Positions 32,827-40,581 of a stretch of DNA of 64,000 nucleotides are shown here, piece by piece. Numbering within the stretch: position 1 is the stretch's first letter; every line of letters begins with the position of its first letter. The notes below the pieces were generated by a model. That model had not been told where the DNA came from, made no database searches, and was given only the letters and a program-made list of their open reading frames with translations. The DNA is from Terriglobia bacterium (GTDB lineage Bacteria; Acidobacteriota; Terriglobia; Terriglobales; SCQP01), in assembly GCA_021323595.1 (NCBI GenBank), contig JAJPKR010000043.1, forward strand, positions 1 to 64,000, written 5' to 3'. A program made the position numbers and the translations under genes.

Positions 32827-33163
32827 GTTCGCCCCCGGTCACCTGCTCCACGGCGCGCACGAAACTCCGCCACTCCGACTGTTGCGCCGCCAGCATCCGC
32901 CGTCCGGCGGCGGTCAGGCGGTAAAAGCGCCGCCGCCGCTCGCCCGGCTTCTCCACCCAACGCCCGCGAATCCACCCGCGCTCCTCGAAGCGGTAAAGCA
33001 GGGGATACAGCGAGGCGGCGTTGTAGCGCAGCTCCCCGCCCGAACGGGCGGCGATCATTTGGCTGAGCTCGTAGCCGTGGCGCGGGCGCGCCTCCAACAA
33101 CGCGAGCAACAGCAGTCCCGCGCTGCCCTTCTTGAGTTCCGCCGCGAACGCGCGCAGTGCCAT
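32819..33163 (-). CDS. PadR-family regulator of the ADOP gene
   Basis: Winged-helix repressor of 114 residues, the compact PadR-s1 type. Core: LKKGSAGLLLLALLEARPRHGYELSQMI, NAASLYPLLYRFEERGWI and the wing KPGERRRRFYRLTAAGRRML. The C-terminal helix (LAAQQSEWRSFVRAVEQVT) makes the dimer. It is upstream of and overlaps the permease gene, so the two are expressed together. No ribosome site precedes its ATG, which is part of an inverted repeat; a leaderless message is possible. Confidence 0.93.
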   Translation of the reverse strand: MALRAFAAELKKGSAGLLLLALLEARPRHGYELSQMIAARSGGELRYNAASLYPLLYRFEERGWIRGRWVEKPGERRRRFYRLTAAGRRMLAAQQSEWRSFVRAVEQVTGGEHA

Positions 33164-34896: not shown

Positions 34897-34922
34897 AAAA
34901 AAAAGTTGTGGCCGCGCCGCCA
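34897..34922 (-). terminator. Candidate intrinsic terminator of the small unit
   Basis: On the minus strand a short GC hairpin, TGGC-GGCGCG-GCCA (34922-34909), is followed after four bases by eight T residues (34904-34897). It stands at the end of a run of hairpins that begins with the 19-codon ORF, and would close a transcript of about 280 bases. The stem is short, so strength is uncertain. Confidence 0.45.
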
Positions 34923-34941
34923 GAATCTTGCGCGCAAATAG

Positions 34942-35100
34942 CGAACCCCGCCTCCGTATGCGTAGCCCCGAGAGGCGCGGCCGGAGGCGGGGTTCGGACG
35001 GTGAACTGATTGGGATTAGCCGAGGGCGGCTCGCCGCCTCGGCATCAGGGCGTATGGATCGCCCTGAAGCGGTTCTAGGCGCGGCGAGCGCCTAGGCTTC
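34942..35100 (-). repeat. Array of four near-perfect hairpins
   Basis: Four inverted repeats stand side by side: a perfect 15-base pair CGAACCCCGCCTCCG / CGGAGGCGGGGTTCG at 34942-34956 and 34982-34996; an 11-base stem with one bulge at 35019-35042 (GCCGAG...CTCGGC); a perfect 8-base stem TCAGGGCG / CGCCCTGA at 35045-35052 and 35060-35067; and a perfect 8-base stem CTAGGCGC / GCGCCTAG at 35075-35082 and 35088-35095, enclosed by GAAGC/GCTTC. Only the bases between 34997 and 35018 are unpaired. So many perfect stems in 160 bases suggest a structured RNA or a REP/BIME-like element. Confidence 0.65.
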
Positions 35101-35151
35101 AGCCACCTCGCTAGTCCAAAATGCGCTGCGTTTACTGCCAGAACTTTCCAC
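35092..35151 (-). CDS. Candidate 19-codon peptide with an extended Shine-Dalgarno
   Basis: GTG-initiated ORF encoding VESSGSKRSAFWTSEVAEA. Seven bases before the GTG ends an exceptional ribosome site: AAAGGAGGTGGTCC matches the full complement of the 16S rRNA 3' tail (AAAGGAGGTGATCC) at 13 of 14 positions. A promoter-like pair lies just upstream. The TAG stop falls in the first stem of the hairpin array, so ribosomes finishing here would touch that structure. The peptide has mixed charge, one Trp, no membrane segment. It could be a leader peptide, a precursor peptide or a small protein. I do not recognise it; coding is inferred only from the initiation signals. Confidence 0.4.
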   Translation of the reverse strand: MESSGSKRSAFWTSEVAEA

Positions 35152-35180
35152 TGGACCACCTCCTTTCCTAGCGTGCTTTC

Positions 35181-35209
35181 AGTAGAACATCGCAGCGGAG
35201 GGAACGCAA
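35181..35209 (-). promoter_or_regulatory. Predicted promoter of the small unit
   Basis: On the minus strand TTGCGT (35209-35204), a 17-base spacer and TCTACT (35186-35181). Both hexamers are partial matches, but the spacing is ideal and transcription would begin near 35174, about 10 bases before the extended ribosome site. Confidence 0.4.
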
Positions 35210-36776: not shown

Positions 36777-37128
36777 GGGGGCGTCCCGGTTTCGACGGGA
36801 GTGGATGAGATCGAGAGGCGTGTCGGGACCCATGCACCCGTAATCGCGTGGAAACCCTGAAATGCCAATCAACAACTGGCATACGCTGCTTAATTAATTA
36901 AGCAACGCGCTTGCCCGGGTTCGTTCGCAGGCCCGGAACAAGCGTCATCCTTGCGGACTGGCTGATGGCGCGTGCCGGGGCGCTGTCGGCGAGATCTTAC
37001 CGGCTGGCGGACGGCGGCTCTTGTTCGTTCTGATCGCCGTTCGCGAGACACGCCGGAACGAACTACGCACGTAGTCTCTCGGTTGGCAGCACTTTCGGAC
37101 GCGGGTTCAATTCCCGCCGCCTCCACCA
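36777..37128 (+). ncRNA. ssrA: tmRNA (one-piece)
   Basis: Rescues stalled ribosomes and tags incomplete proteins for destruction. The 5' end GGGGGCG pairs with CGCCTCC at the 3' end to make the alanyl acceptor arm; GGTTTCGACGGG near the 5' end and GGTTCAATTCCCGCC near the 3' end are universal tmRNA sequences, and CCA is encoded at 37126-37128. The tag reading frame (36863-36892) gives ANQQLAYAA and stop, followed by TTAATTAA. A T5 run directly after the CCA could end transcription. Length 352 bases is typical. Confidence 0.96.
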
Positions 37129-37145
37129 TTTTTCCGCTTCTCACT

Positions 37146-37395
37146 GGCGGCAGCCCCCGAATCCACCACAGAAAGTCCAGCCAGCCGAGATCGAGGGGGA
37201 GCGCGCATCGCAGCGAAGCGCCAAGCGAATGCGCAGCGCAGCGAAGCGCCAAGCGAAGACTCGCGAGACCCCGCCGGGCGGGTCCCTGCCAGCTGACCAC
37301 GCCGGAGCGGGGCGGCCGGGGACCCCAAGGCGCAGCAGCGCACCTTGGGGCGGGAGAAGCCAGCAGGGCGAGGCCGCAGGCTGGGAGGGGCGCGC
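37146..37395 (+). repeat. Dispersed intergenic repeat, copy 1
   Basis: About 250 bases between tmRNA and miaB that resemble, in reverse orientation, the region 62345-62535. Exact shared blocks include GCGCAGCGCAGCGAAGCGCC (37231-37250) and AGCCAGCAGGGCGAGGCC (37358-37375), with further matches around TCCAGCCAG and CGAGGGGGA. This copy also holds a local tandem duplication of period 28 (CAGCGAAGCGCCAAGCGAA at 37211 and 37239). It contains no gene. Confidence 0.75.
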
Positions 37396-37481
37396 CGTTC
37401 CCCGGCTTCCCCGCGAGCGTGCAGGAACTCGGAAGCGGGCTTGTTATACTGCCCCCAAGCGTTGGTAAATCCCCGCTCCTC

Positions 37482-38879
37482 ATGCCCGCGGCCAAGAAGA
37501 CATTTTGGATCGAGACGTTCGGCTGCCAGATGAACGTGCACGACTCCGAGCGCGTCGCGGGCACGCTCTGCGCCCACGGTTTCGCCGCGGTCGAGCGGGC
37601 GGAAGAAGCCGATCTGATCCTCTTCAACACTTGCAGCATTCGCGAGAAGGCGGCGCAAAAGGTCTTTCAGCGGCTGGCGCAGTTTCGGCCGCTGGCGAAA
37701 GAAGGCAAGCAGTTCGGGGTGCTGGGCTGCGTCGCGCAGCAGGAGGGGGAGGCGATCTTCCAGCGCGCGCCGCATGTGAACCTGGTCGCGGGCTCGGCGA
37801 GCTATCCGCGGCTGGCGGAGCTGATCGCGCGGCTGGAAGCCGGCGAAAAGCGCGTGACCGGCCTGGGATCGGCGGAGGAGGCGTTCGAGACCGAACTGAC
37901 CCGCCGCGATCATCCCTTCCGCGCCTACCTCACCATCATCGAGGGCTGCGACAAGCATTGCGCCTACTGCGTCGTGCCCTTTACGCGCGGGCCCGAGCGC
38001 AGCCGTGCCAGCGCCAGCATCCTGGCCGAGGCGCGGCAGCTGGCGGCGGCGGGCTACAGCGAGGTGCAGCTGCTCGGACAGAACGTGAATTCCTACCGCG
38101 ACCCCTCGCCGGCGCGGTTGAGCTTCGCCGAATTGCTGGCGGCCGTGGCCGAGGTGCCAGGCCTGCGACGGGTGCGTTTCACGACCTCGCACCCGCGCGA
38201 TTTCCATCCGGAGATCGTGCGCGTTTTGGGCGAGCACGAGACGCTGTGCGATCACGTGCACTTGCCCGTGCAATCGGGCTCCTCGCGCGTGCTCGCCGCC
38301 ATGCGGCGCGATTACACGCGCGAGCAATATCTGGAGCGGATCGCGGCGATCCGCGCATGCCGCCGGCCGCTCGCGATCACGACCGATCTGATCGTCGGGT
38401 TTCCGGGCGAGTCGGACGAGGACTTCGCCGCCACGATCGAGCTCCTGGACGAAGTGCGCTACGCCGGCGCGTTCAGCTTCAAATATTCGCCGCGGCCCAA
38501 CACTGCCTCCGGCGCCTGGCCCGACAGCGTGCCCGAAGCCGTCAAAGCCGAGCGGCTCATGATCTTGCAGCGGCGGCAGCAAGAGATCCAGCAGCACGAC
38601 AACCAGAGCTTCGTCGGCCGCACGCTCGAGGTGATGGTCGAGGGACACAACCCCAAGCTGGGACAGTGGATCGGGCGGGCCAGCACGAACCGTTCCGTCA
38701 ACTTCACCGGCAGCGGCTTGCGCGAGCCGGCCGCCGCGGCGCTGCCGATTTTTGCCGCGCCGCTGCGTCCGGGGGATTACGCTTGGGTAAGGATCACGAA
38801 GGCCGGAGCGAACAGCCTGGTCGGCGAGCAAGCGGCGGCGCCGGCGGCGGCAGGGAGGGCAATGTGGAAATCGAGATGA
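37482..38879 (+). CDS. miaB: tRNA-2-methylthio-N6-isopentenyladenosine synthase
   Basis: Radical SAM methylthiotransferase acting on i6A37 of tRNAs. 465 residues: UPF0004 domain with cluster Cys residues in FWIETFGCQMN, LFNTCSIRE and GVLGCVAQQ; radical SAM motif CxxxCxxC in EGCDKHCAYCVVPFTRG; QLLGQNVNSY and HLPVQSGSSRVL downstream; and a TRAM domain at the C-terminus (GRTLEVMVEG...GDYAWVRI). All six cluster cysteines are present. ATG 37482 begins MPAAKKTFWIETFG, in line with the family. A TATACT box at 37444-37449 may be its -10. It overlaps the next gene. Confidence 0.96.
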   Translation: MPAAKKTFWIETFGCQMNVHDSERVAGTLCAHGFAAVERAEEADLILFNTCSIREKAAQKVFQRLAQFRPLAKEGKQFGVLGCVAQQEGEAIFQRAPHVNLVAGSASYPRLAELIARLEAGEKRVTGLGSAEEAFETELTRRDHPFRAYLTIIEGCDKHCAYCVVPFTRGPERSRASASILAEARQLAAAGYSEVQLLGQNVNSYRDPSPARLSFAELLAAVAEVPGLRRVRFTTSHPRDFHPEIVRVLGEHETLCDHVHLPVQSGSSRVLAAMRRDYTREQYLERIAAIRACRRPLAITTDLIVGFPGESDEDFAATIELLDEVRYAGAFSFKYSPRPNTASGAWPDSVPEAVKAERLMILQRRQQEIQQHDNQSFVGRTLEVMVEGHNPKLGQWIGRASTNRSVNFTGSGLREPAAAALPIFAAPLRPGDYAWVRITKAGANSLVGEQAAAPAAAGRAMWKSR

Positions 38880-39349
38880 AGATCCGCGGGCTGATGATGG
38901 ACGCCTCGACCAACACGCCCATCGTCATTCTCAAGGACGGCAGCGGCTCCACTGTCTTGCCGATCTGGGTCGGCATCTATGAAGCCAACGCGATCGCGCT
39001 GGAGATCGAGAAGGTGCAGACGCCGCGGCCGATGACGCACGACCTGATCAAGAACCTCATGCTGGGACTGAACACCAGCATCAGCAAGGTGGTGGTCAAC
39101 GAGCTGCGCGACGACACCTTCTATGCGCTGATCTGGATGGAAAAAGACGGCGAAACCTTCGCCCTCGACGCGCGGCCGAGCGATGCGCTGGCGCTGGCGC
39201 TGCGCATGGACTGCCCGATCTACGTCGAGGAGGACGTGCTGAAAAGCTCCAAGGTGGCCGCCGCCGCCGCCGACCCCAGCTCGAGCGAGGAACTGCGGCG
39301 CTGGCTGGAAAATCTGGGCGACGAAGAGACCGGCCGCTACAAGATGTGA
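38864..39349 (+). CDS. Bifunctional nuclease family protein (DUF151)
   Basis: Protein of 161 residues in the bifunctional nuclease (BFN) family, whose plant member has DNase and RNase activity. GTG 38864 is chosen because GGGAGGG stands 5 bases upstream and the resulting start, [17 protein letters not shown], is the standard one; ATG at 38876 lies too far from any ribosome site. Core: [49 protein letters not shown] and [13 protein letters not shown]. It overlaps miaB by 16 bases and ispG by 4, so it is in the same operon, an arrangement worth noting for a poorly known family. Confidence 0.9.
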
Positions 39350-40581
39350 TGGCGGCGCGGCGCAAGAGCATTCCTGTGGCGGTGGGCGGGGTCGTCGTCG
39401 GCGGCGCGGCGCCGATCGTCGTGCAGGCGATGACCAACACCGACACCGCCGACGTCGCGGCCACGGTCGCGCAGGCGCAGGCGCTCGCCGAGGCGGGCTC
39501 CGAGCTAGTGCGGGTGACGGTCAATACCGAGGCCGCCGCGCGCGCGGTGCCGCGCATCGCTGAAGAGCTTGACCGCCGCGGCGTGCGCGCGCCGCTGGTG
39601 GGCGACTTCCATTACAACGGCCACCTGCTGCTGACCCGCTATCCCGAGTGCGCCGCCGCGCTCGCCAAATACCGCATCAATCCCGGCAACGTCAGCATCG
39701 GCCGCAAGACCGACGAAAACTTCCGCGCCATGATCGAGGTGGCCGCCGCGCGCGGCAAGCCGGTGCGCATCGGCGTCAACTGGGGTTCGCTCGATCAGCA
39801 GTTGCTGGCGCGGCTGATGGACGAGAATTCGCGGCGGCCGGAGCCGCGCGAGGCAGCGGCGGTGCTGCGCGAGGCGATCGTCCTCTCCGCCCTCGAATCC
39901 GCGCGCGCGGCCGAAAACTACGGCCTGCCCCACGACGCCCTCATCCTGAGCGCGAAGGTCTCGGCGGCGCCCGATCTGATCGCCATCTATCGCGAGCTGG
40001 CCGCGGCCTGCGATTACCCGCTGCACTTGGGCCTGACCGAGGCCGGCCTGGGCATGAAGGGCATCGTGGCCTCGACGGCCGGCATGGCGGTGCTGCTGGC
40101 GGAGGGGATCGGCGACACCATCCGGGTCTCGCTGACGCCGGCGCCCGGCGGCGATCGCACGGAGGAAGTGCGCGTGGCGCAGCAGATCTTGCAGTCGCTG
40201 GGGTTGCGGCATTTCGCGCCGCAGGTGAGCGCCTGCCCGGGCTGCGGCCGCACGACCAGCTCGTTCTTTCAAGAAATGGCCGGGCAGATCCAAGCGCACT
40301 TGCGCGCGCGCATGCCGGAATGGCGTGCGCTGTATCCCGGCGTCGAGGAGCTGCGCGTCGCGGTCATGGGCTGCGTCGTCAATGGGCCGGGGGAATCGCG
40401 CCACGCCGACATCGGCATCTCCCTGCCCGGAACCTTCGAAGAGCCGAAGGCGCCGGTCTATGTAGATGGGCGGCTGTTCCGCACCTTGTACGGGGAAGGC
40501 CTGGTGGCGGAGTTTCTGGACATCCTCGAGGAATACGTCGCCCGGCGGTATGGCGTGGCTTCCGGCGCCGCCCGAGCGTAG
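39346..40581 (+). CDS. ispG: 4-hydroxy-3-methylbut-2-enyl diphosphate synthase
   Basis: [4Fe-4S] enzyme of the MEP isoprenoid pathway, converting MEcPP to HMBPP. 411 residues; TIM barrel start [27 protein letters not shown]-like segment, [42 protein letters not shown], then the C-terminal cluster domain with [10 protein letters not shown] and [18 protein letters not shown], giving the three Cys and Glu ligands. GTG 39346 and ATG 39349 are equally good; both overlap the stop of the nuclease gene. The upstream miaB also needs an isoprenoid-modified tRNA, a loose functional link. Confidence 0.96.

Follow-up and report, generated by a model that had tools for sequence, protein, structure and literature searches.

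A candidate translated regulatory RNA of Terriglobia homologous to the actinobacterial small RNA Ms_IGR-5

INTRODUCTION

On the minus strand of a contig from a Terriglobia bacterium (GenBank assembly GCA_021323595.1, contig JAJPKR010000043.1; the whole stretch analyzed, positions 1 to 64,000, is referred to as the window), an exceptionally complete ribosome site precedes an open reading frame (ORF) of only 19 codons whose end lies within a predicted fold. Relatives of this unit in other phyla raise the question of why distant bacteria keep, usually once per genome, a translated RNA whose peptide is seemingly unimportant. A first-pass annotation of the window had described a self-contained transcription unit and proposed three roles for it: a leader-peptide RNA, a precursor-peptide gene, or a regulatory RNA. 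We favor, with a probability of roughly 55%, a form of the last of these, in which the unit would stand on its own as the gene of a small regulatory RNA that requires translation, is homologous to Ms_IGR-5 (Rfam RF02471), and has its fold opened by a terminating ribosome.

RESULTS

Parts of the unit

The unit extends over positions 35209 to 34942 of the minus strand and consists of the following parts, in which P0 and P1 denote two helices described below.

35204 to 35209, minus: -35-like hexamer TTGCGT, as read in the sequence
35181 to 35186, minus: -10-like hexamer TCTACT, separated from TTGCGT by a 17-nt spacer
Near 35174, minus: expected transcription start
35153 to 35166, minus: ribosome site AAAGGAGGTGGTCC, which can pair with the entire single-stranded 16S tail, one of the pairs being G-U
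35092 to 35151, minus: ORF VESSGSKRSAFWTSEVAEA and stop (GTG start, 19 sense codons, TAG stop)
35152 to 35157, minus: 5' arm of P0, GGTCCA, the 3' half of the ribosome site
35113 to 35118, minus: 3' arm of P0, TGGACT, within the ORF
35099 to 35107, minus: 5' arm of P1, GGTGGCTGA, in the E-V-A codons, assigned on the basis of P1 covariation
35021 to 35091, minus: lineage-specific hairpins between the P1 arms, starting directly after the stop codon in the minimum-energy fold
35010 to 35017, minus: conserved unpaired stretch AATCCCAA, preceding the P1 3' arm, with A-A-T invariant or nearly so in alignment A2
35000 to 35009, minus: 3' arm of P1, TCAG-T-TCACC, with one bulged T, an anti-Shine-Dalgarno (anti-SD)-like segment as in 16S rRNA
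34942 to 34996, minus: perfect 15-bp hairpin, the probable terminator; a hairpin also lies 3' of the arm in relatives

The 19-codon GTG ORF with its TAG stop is present as the first-pass annotation had described it and lies at 35151 to 35092. Its promoter-like pair, TTGCGT-17-TCTACT, is present as read but scores below 9 of 12 in a consensus scan, which accordingly returned no 9-of-12 promoter between 34800 and 35400. The same scan of this interval found no hairpin-T terminator; it requires a short loop and a T run and did not recognize the 15-bp hairpin at 34996 to 34942. The annotation had joined a hairpin to the T8 run, which does exist at 34904 to 34897, but the strong 15-bp hairpin stops 37 nt before it, and since the terminator was thus misplaced, we regard the original observation as only partly confirmed. 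The 3' end of the RNA probably lies near 34935, a position made likelier by the relatives, in which the comparable hairpin comes directly after the 3' arm.

The predicted fold of 35175 to 34900 is better than that of 200 of 200 dinucleotide shuffles (z = -4.07), and its minimum-energy form encloses the stop codon in a stem, in agreement with the annotation. The hairpins between the two P1 arms differ in both length and sequence among relatives. The sequence AAAGGAGGTGRTCC occurs a single time in the 3.5-Mb assembly.

The ribosome site bears out its initial description, in that AAAGGAGGTGGTCC equals the 16S-tail complement AAAGGAGGTGATCC at 13 of 14 positions, and the odd base, a G, still forms a G-U pair. 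Its predicted duplex with a generic 16S tail amounts to -29.8 kcal/mol, close to the median of the units (-29.4 kcal/mol); the end of Escherichia coli 16S rRNA matches this tail through GGATCACCTCCTT, and GGATCACCTCCTTT is absent from the window's own assembly. Duplexes of -20 kcal/mol or below are predicted for 243 of 245 unique units, for 1 of 873 long-ORF starts, and for 11 of 4,900 random windows, a comparison that favors the units because they were chosen by an SD-like pattern and whose long-ORF controls are six-frame ORFs, spurious ones included. Roughly ten bases at most separate the start of the site from the expected 5' end.

Kinship with Ms_IGR-5

The annotation had recognized no known RNA family and so missed a relative, the Rfam family RF02471 (Ms_IGR-5), which Rfam files as an sRNA of Actinobacteria and for which we know of no function. 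Against this model the window scores 37.1 bits (E = 9.4e-7; E = 9.9e-7 in a search of its whole genome), below the gathering cut-off of 45, and the window's copy is therefore considered a variant rather than an Rfam-grade member. The cut-off is passed by L004, a locus of the same family of bacteria (47.0 bits), by L028 of the same class (49.3 bits), by an acidobacterium of another family (50.3 bits), by two loci from the phylum of the Zixibacteria metagenome-assembled genome (MAG) (58.0 and 51.1 bits), and by a locus from the phylum of the Nitrospirae MAG (49.3 bits). In a set of 12 loci, 2 scored over the cut-off and six more matched below it; L005 reaches 37.1 bits. In a further 20 mixed loci, 11 matched at an E value of ≤0.01, 8 of which passed the cut-off, and nine gave no match. 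No match to RF02471 was obtained in 14 control genomes.

The window is alignable over the full 184-position model with the same ribosome site, and the RF02471 consensus, read in the ORF frame, yields a peptide ending in WTCEVAAR and a stop, as in the mycobacterial loci. Relative to RF02471, the acidobacterial P1 is bulged, the loops are not the same, and the ORF has 19 codons instead of mostly 12. With the ribosome site, the ORF frame, and P1 common to both, the window's unit is, as judged by alignment, a homologue of the RF02471 relatives.

In the literature searched, Ms_IGR-5 is given neither a function nor a peptide in the text available to us and appears only in lists: as a mapped sRNA transcription unit in Streptomyces avermitilis (PMC8780764), as an RNA validated by RNA-seq in Streptomyces lividans (PMC8079986), and as overlapping a mapped sRNA in Mycobacterium smegmatis (PMC10454040). 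Significant ribosomal reads on MS_IGR-5 are reported for both Mycobacterium abscessus and M. smegmatis (PMC4974804).

Distribution

A blastn search of 60 relatives located the core in the window's own genome, in 9 of the 13 further genomes from its family, and in 0 of 46 genomes of the neighboring family. With R1, a covariance model of nine sequences, matches (E ≤ 0.01) were obtained for 186 of the 399 genomes searched from the class; among those listed, nearly all had one match and four had two. Model R1 had been built with UGGACU/AGUCCA as the closing helix, a candidate that was later replaced by P1 because its pairing breaks in L007, L008, and L010. A second model, R2, comprised 29 sequences, with that of the window left out, and was searched at the same threshold; it scores the window at 72.3 bits (E = 1.4e-18). 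R2 matched 65 of 247 genomes of the window's own phylum (42 with E < 1e-5), 88 of 198 Actinomycetota (74), 47 of 132 from the phylum of the Zixibacteria MAG (46), 13 of 295 from that of the Nitrospirae MAG (10), and 8 of 198 from that of the Deltaproteobacteria MAG (3). Covariance matches that were given locus numbers were read individually, and some weak ones proved false, L205 to L209 and L298 to L300 having no such unit.

An exact pattern (AAGGAGGTGGTCC, a gap, and GAGGTGGC) occurs at at least 120 loci in species genomes. Those listed are mostly from actinobacteria and acidobacteria, with single or few matches under Nitrospirae, Zixibacteria, Sumerlaeota, Deltaproteobacteria, and Planctomycetaceae titles; three of the pattern loci (L106, L117, and L181) are off-layout. 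Conversely, L066 and six actinobacterial matches were missed by the locating pattern and fit by eye (L267 in the later set). The copy number is usually one per genome: nine genomes from named loci divide into seven with one strong match, that of the Planctomycetaceae with only weak ones, and one with none. Taken at the level of sequence and predicted structure, homologous units occur in several bacterial phyla.

Reading frame and peptide

At 170 unique loci, the distance from the ribosome site to GAG varies freely, yet 167 of them have an in-frame stop exactly five codons downstream of GAG. Starting at an NTG beside the ribosome site, 168 of these loci keep this frame open, compared with 69 and 1 for the other two frames. 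Across 245 unique loci that fit the layout, the ORF spans 10 to 22 codons and the position of the stop is kept. TAG serves as the stop in 191 units, TGA in 30, and TAA in 24; among long ORFs taken from all six frames at these loci, spurious ones included, TAG accounts for 443 of 1,538. Start codons are ATG in 121 units, TTG in 64, GTG in 39, and CTG in 17, counts that may be off because the rule takes the most upstream NTG, and four units lack an NTG. Units of the latter kind (e.g., L280, L283, L111, and L256) have AUU, AUC, or ACG at the start position when examined by eye.

Codon choice follows the frame as well: AGT was counted 226 times in frame but 3 times and once in the other two frames, in a set with many related sequences. 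Serine makes up 422 of 1,959 middle residues when all clades are pooled and is missing from some ORFs. The G+C content of the ORF middle is 43%, versus 64% for the loci, and is the lower of the two in 240 of 241 cases. Comparison of frame, stop, and codon choice supports translation of the ORF.

The peptide product is another matter, since its sequence appears to lack conservation. Codon-position entropy gives no third-position signature in the ORF middle in any length class, entropy at third positions not exceeding that at first and second positions. The E-V pair is nearly invariant, Ser-rich starts such as SGS are common to some clades, and the last two residues vary freely. C-terminal motifs are EVA in 182 units, EVT in 43, EVV and EVP in 7 each, EGA in 3, and single forms in the remaining three. 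Within the family of the window, the ORFs have 16, 19, or 22 codons, are always in frame, and end in W-T-[S/C]-E-V-A-E-x-stop. GAGG is kept while the following bases vary, and is also part of the locating patterns. A hydrophobic, membrane-spanning peptide of the type I toxin or micropeptide kind was not found among these ORFs, whose middle is rich in S, T, R, C, and D.

Helices P1 and P0

The end of the ORF is engaged in a helix, P1, formed between the codons G-GUG-GCU-Gnn and the segment nnCAG[n]CCACC that immediately precedes the terminator. Alignment A2 brings together 29 sequences from at least six lineages, and of its 10 P1 pairs, 7 have changed on both sides; the covariation score is 0.277, versus at most 0.106 for slid versions of the helix, and on all five covariation measures 0 of 500 shuffles reach the observed value. 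In alignment A3 (44 actinobacterial sequences), 95.4% of P1 cells are paired and 21 cells have changed on both sides, with 0 of 500 shuffles reaching the observed value for three measures and 15 and 89 of 500 for the other two. The GGUGG:CCACC half of P1 hardly varies. Compensatory pairs can be seen in L203 and L204 (GUGAC:GUCAC and GUGUC:GACAC) and in L210, in which GGUGCCUG accompanies CAGG-C-CACC, and a clade with E-G-A instead of E-V-A (L062, L063, and L071) remains complementary in P1 by eye. Loci of the window's family have ATCAG-T-CCACC or a variant before the terminator, and their ribosome site is invariant. When the 3' arm was searched for without constraint in 30 loci, it was placed at the expected spot, next to the AAUCC-type stretch or a similar flank, in 18 and elsewhere in the others.

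RNAalifold, applied to the 44 actinobacterial sequences, predicts P1 unprompted. It likewise predicts P0 (GUCC:GGAC), a pairing of GGAC in the ORF with the end of the ribosome site; this helix is kept in 44 of 44 sequences, never changed on both sides, and was transferred to the window by eye. The covariance search that the annotation had proposed as a check has brought up homologues with both compensatory stem changes and a conserved ORF frame.

Promoter position and genomic neighbors

Of 242 unique loci, 191 have their best sigma-70-like pair ending 14 to 16 nt upstream of AGGAGG; shuffled upstream sequences, unlike the unit loci, have no preferred promoter distance. Clustered neighbors are lineage-specific: among 170 loci, those of actinobacteria have an upstream GCV_T-domain protein (30 loci) and a downstream THAP4-type heme-binding protein (35 loci), both on the opposite strand, and the neighbors in acidobacterial groups are ribosomal protein L31 (18 loci), ThiG (9), and a NUDIX protein (10). 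Across clades, no regulated gene was found that constantly follows the unit on its own strand. By virtue of its own promoter and its changing neighbors, the unit is, at the level of sequence comparison, a free-standing gene, and together with the conserved frame these features uphold the annotation's self-contained transcription unit with a translated ORF.

A tRNA-Gly gene lies downstream of the unit in 8 of 10 loci of the family. In the window, tRNA-Gly(GCC) (34701 to 34630) and tRNA-Cys(GCA) (34574 to 34503), both on the minus strand, follow the unit on the same strand. Between unit and tRNA-Gly, three relatives have a further conserved segment, AACCCGTWAGCGCACC, accompanied by a hairpin and a terminator (L005, 1772 to 1787; L006, 530 to 545; and L007, 1310 to 1295); it is exact in 7 of 300 loci, namely these three and their duplicates, and its counterpart in the window, with the last base changed, lies at about 34885 to 34853 on the minus strand. 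Elsewhere in the window, a tmRNA gene (36777 to 37128, plus strand; RF00023, 176.6 bits) overlaps the start of an ORF at 36972 to 38879 that encodes a protein with UPF0004, radical-SAM, and TRAM domains, and Pfam matches identify a GcpE/IspG-type protein at 39346 to 40581 (plus strand) and a PadR regulator at 33163 to 32819 (minus strand). In L289 (2370 to 2845), from a genome in the phylum of the Nitrospirae MAG, the unit is near the 5S and 23S rRNA genes, on the opposite strand.

DISCUSSION

An RNA with such a grip on the ribosome, a tiny ORF, and a fold over the end of that ORF, recurring in several phyla, is probably one whose shape is set by its being translated. As we envisage it, the ribosome site would capture a 30S subunit with very high affinity, and the ribosome would cross the 10 to 22 codons and halt at the stop with the 5' arm of P1 inside it, so that P1 would open and its anti-SD-like 3' arm would be freed; once the ribosome departs, P1 would close again. 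Selection would then act on translation and not on peptide sequence, and the RNA would exist in two folds differing in stability or binding partners. A second state of the switch may be formed by pairing of the freed 3' arm with the unit's own ribosome site, a complementarity that is plausible by eye, is lost in L062-type members, and lacks covariation because the ribosome site is almost invariant. The coupling of translation to folding that the first-pass annotation had suggested agrees with the fixed stop and the covariation of P1, and of its three proposed roles the regulatory RNA fares best, as a translated homologue of Ms_IGR-5. For the RF02471 RNA, the proposed translated ORF, the covarying helix linked to the stop, and the multi-phylum range are new.

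A broader form of this reading, which we advance tentatively and consider doubtful, would make the unit a cross-phylum, ribosome-gated RNA that captures 30S subunits, opens a helix mimicking the SD:anti-SD duplex, reads the availability of ribosomes or release factors, and acts in trans. In it, the one RNA of each genome would be traversed by one ribosome running to a fixed, usually UAG, stop; were this gating model true, the ribosome itself would control an RNA that acts in trans.

Two other readings also give the ribosome a part. The RNA could be a decoy or sensor that holds 30S or terminating ribosomes and thereby titrates or reports ribosome capacity, gripping them by the full-tail ribosome site and by the SD-like GAGGUG six bases plus one codon before the stop. 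The strength of the 16S-tail duplexes (≤ -20 kcal/mol in 243 of 245 units), the retention of GAGG next to varying bases, and the frequency of weak starts (64 TTG, 39 GTG, and 17 CTG of 241) would all suit a decoy, which, however, would need neither an in-frame ORF with a fixed stop nor P1 and, at a single copy per genome, would demand very high abundance; with GAGG conservation partly built into the locating patterns, we judge this reading unlikely. We are also disinclined to see in the unit a small-peptide gene, with a product of 10 to 22 residues, a functional R-E-V-A-x-x C terminus, and an RNA structure that only tunes expression, which strikes us as rather improbable. Its start, frame, and stop are conserved, E-V is nearly invariant, codon bias is in frame, starts are Ser-rich in some clades, and ribosome reads are reported for mycobacterial homologues (PMC4974804), but the middle of the peptide has no third-position signature, the last two residues are free, and the E-G-A clade retains P1 complementarity. 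A precursor peptide, as raised in the annotation, is unlikely for the same reason, the codon-position signature being absent and the P1 pairing being kept where the E-V-A codons change.

Further from the evidence lie the remaining readings. The idea that a ribosome stabilizes the 5' end of an RNA comes from work on Bacillus, and the ribosome site and ORF might merely protect an ordinary base-pairing sRNA in this manner; a strong site within some ten bases of the expected 5' end is what such protection would look like, but it would not account for a stop that is fixed and spanned by a covarying helix, making this explanation very unlikely. The leader-peptide role is weaker still. A hairpin that overlaps the ORF, with a terminator farther on, has the look of an attenuator, and tRNA-Gly (8 of 10 family loci), L31 (18 of 170), and ThiG (9 of 170) are downstream, but the downstream gene depends on the clade and is the opposite-strand clustered neighbor in 35 loci, often so in actinobacteria, and no conserved antiterminator was seen; we regard regulation of a downstream gene as highly improbable. 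As for chance features of a GC-rich intergenic region, to which the weak results of the promoter and terminator consensus scans might have pointed, conservation over several phyla and the statistics of frame and covariation leave a negligible probability, and we consider a chance origin ruled out by the relatives, the frame, and P1.

Besides RF02471, several known systems come close to the unit. In leader-peptide attenuators of the trp type, a ribosome on a tiny ORF changes the fold of its own RNA, as it would in the unit; the unit differs from these in having no regulated downstream gene in the same transcript and in its clade-dependent neighbors. The dual-function sRNAs SgrS/SgrT and SR1 combine one RNA with one small ORF, as does the unit, which is likewise probably regulatory; unlike theirs, its ORF stop is locked to a covarying helix and its ribosome site is maximal. 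The Caulobacter sRNA CC2171 (RF01867), whose 5' end GAAAGGAGGUGAUCCAGUG can be aligned to GAAAGGAGGTGGTCCAGTG in the window, was discarded as a relative: the score is 18.3 bits (cut-off, 75; E = 0.15), no match was found in the window's own genome at an E value of ≤0.1, and the likeness is limited to the 16S-tail complement, Pseudomonadota lying outside our sample. Since CC2171 also starts with a full 16S-tail complement, other sRNA families may hide similar ORFs.
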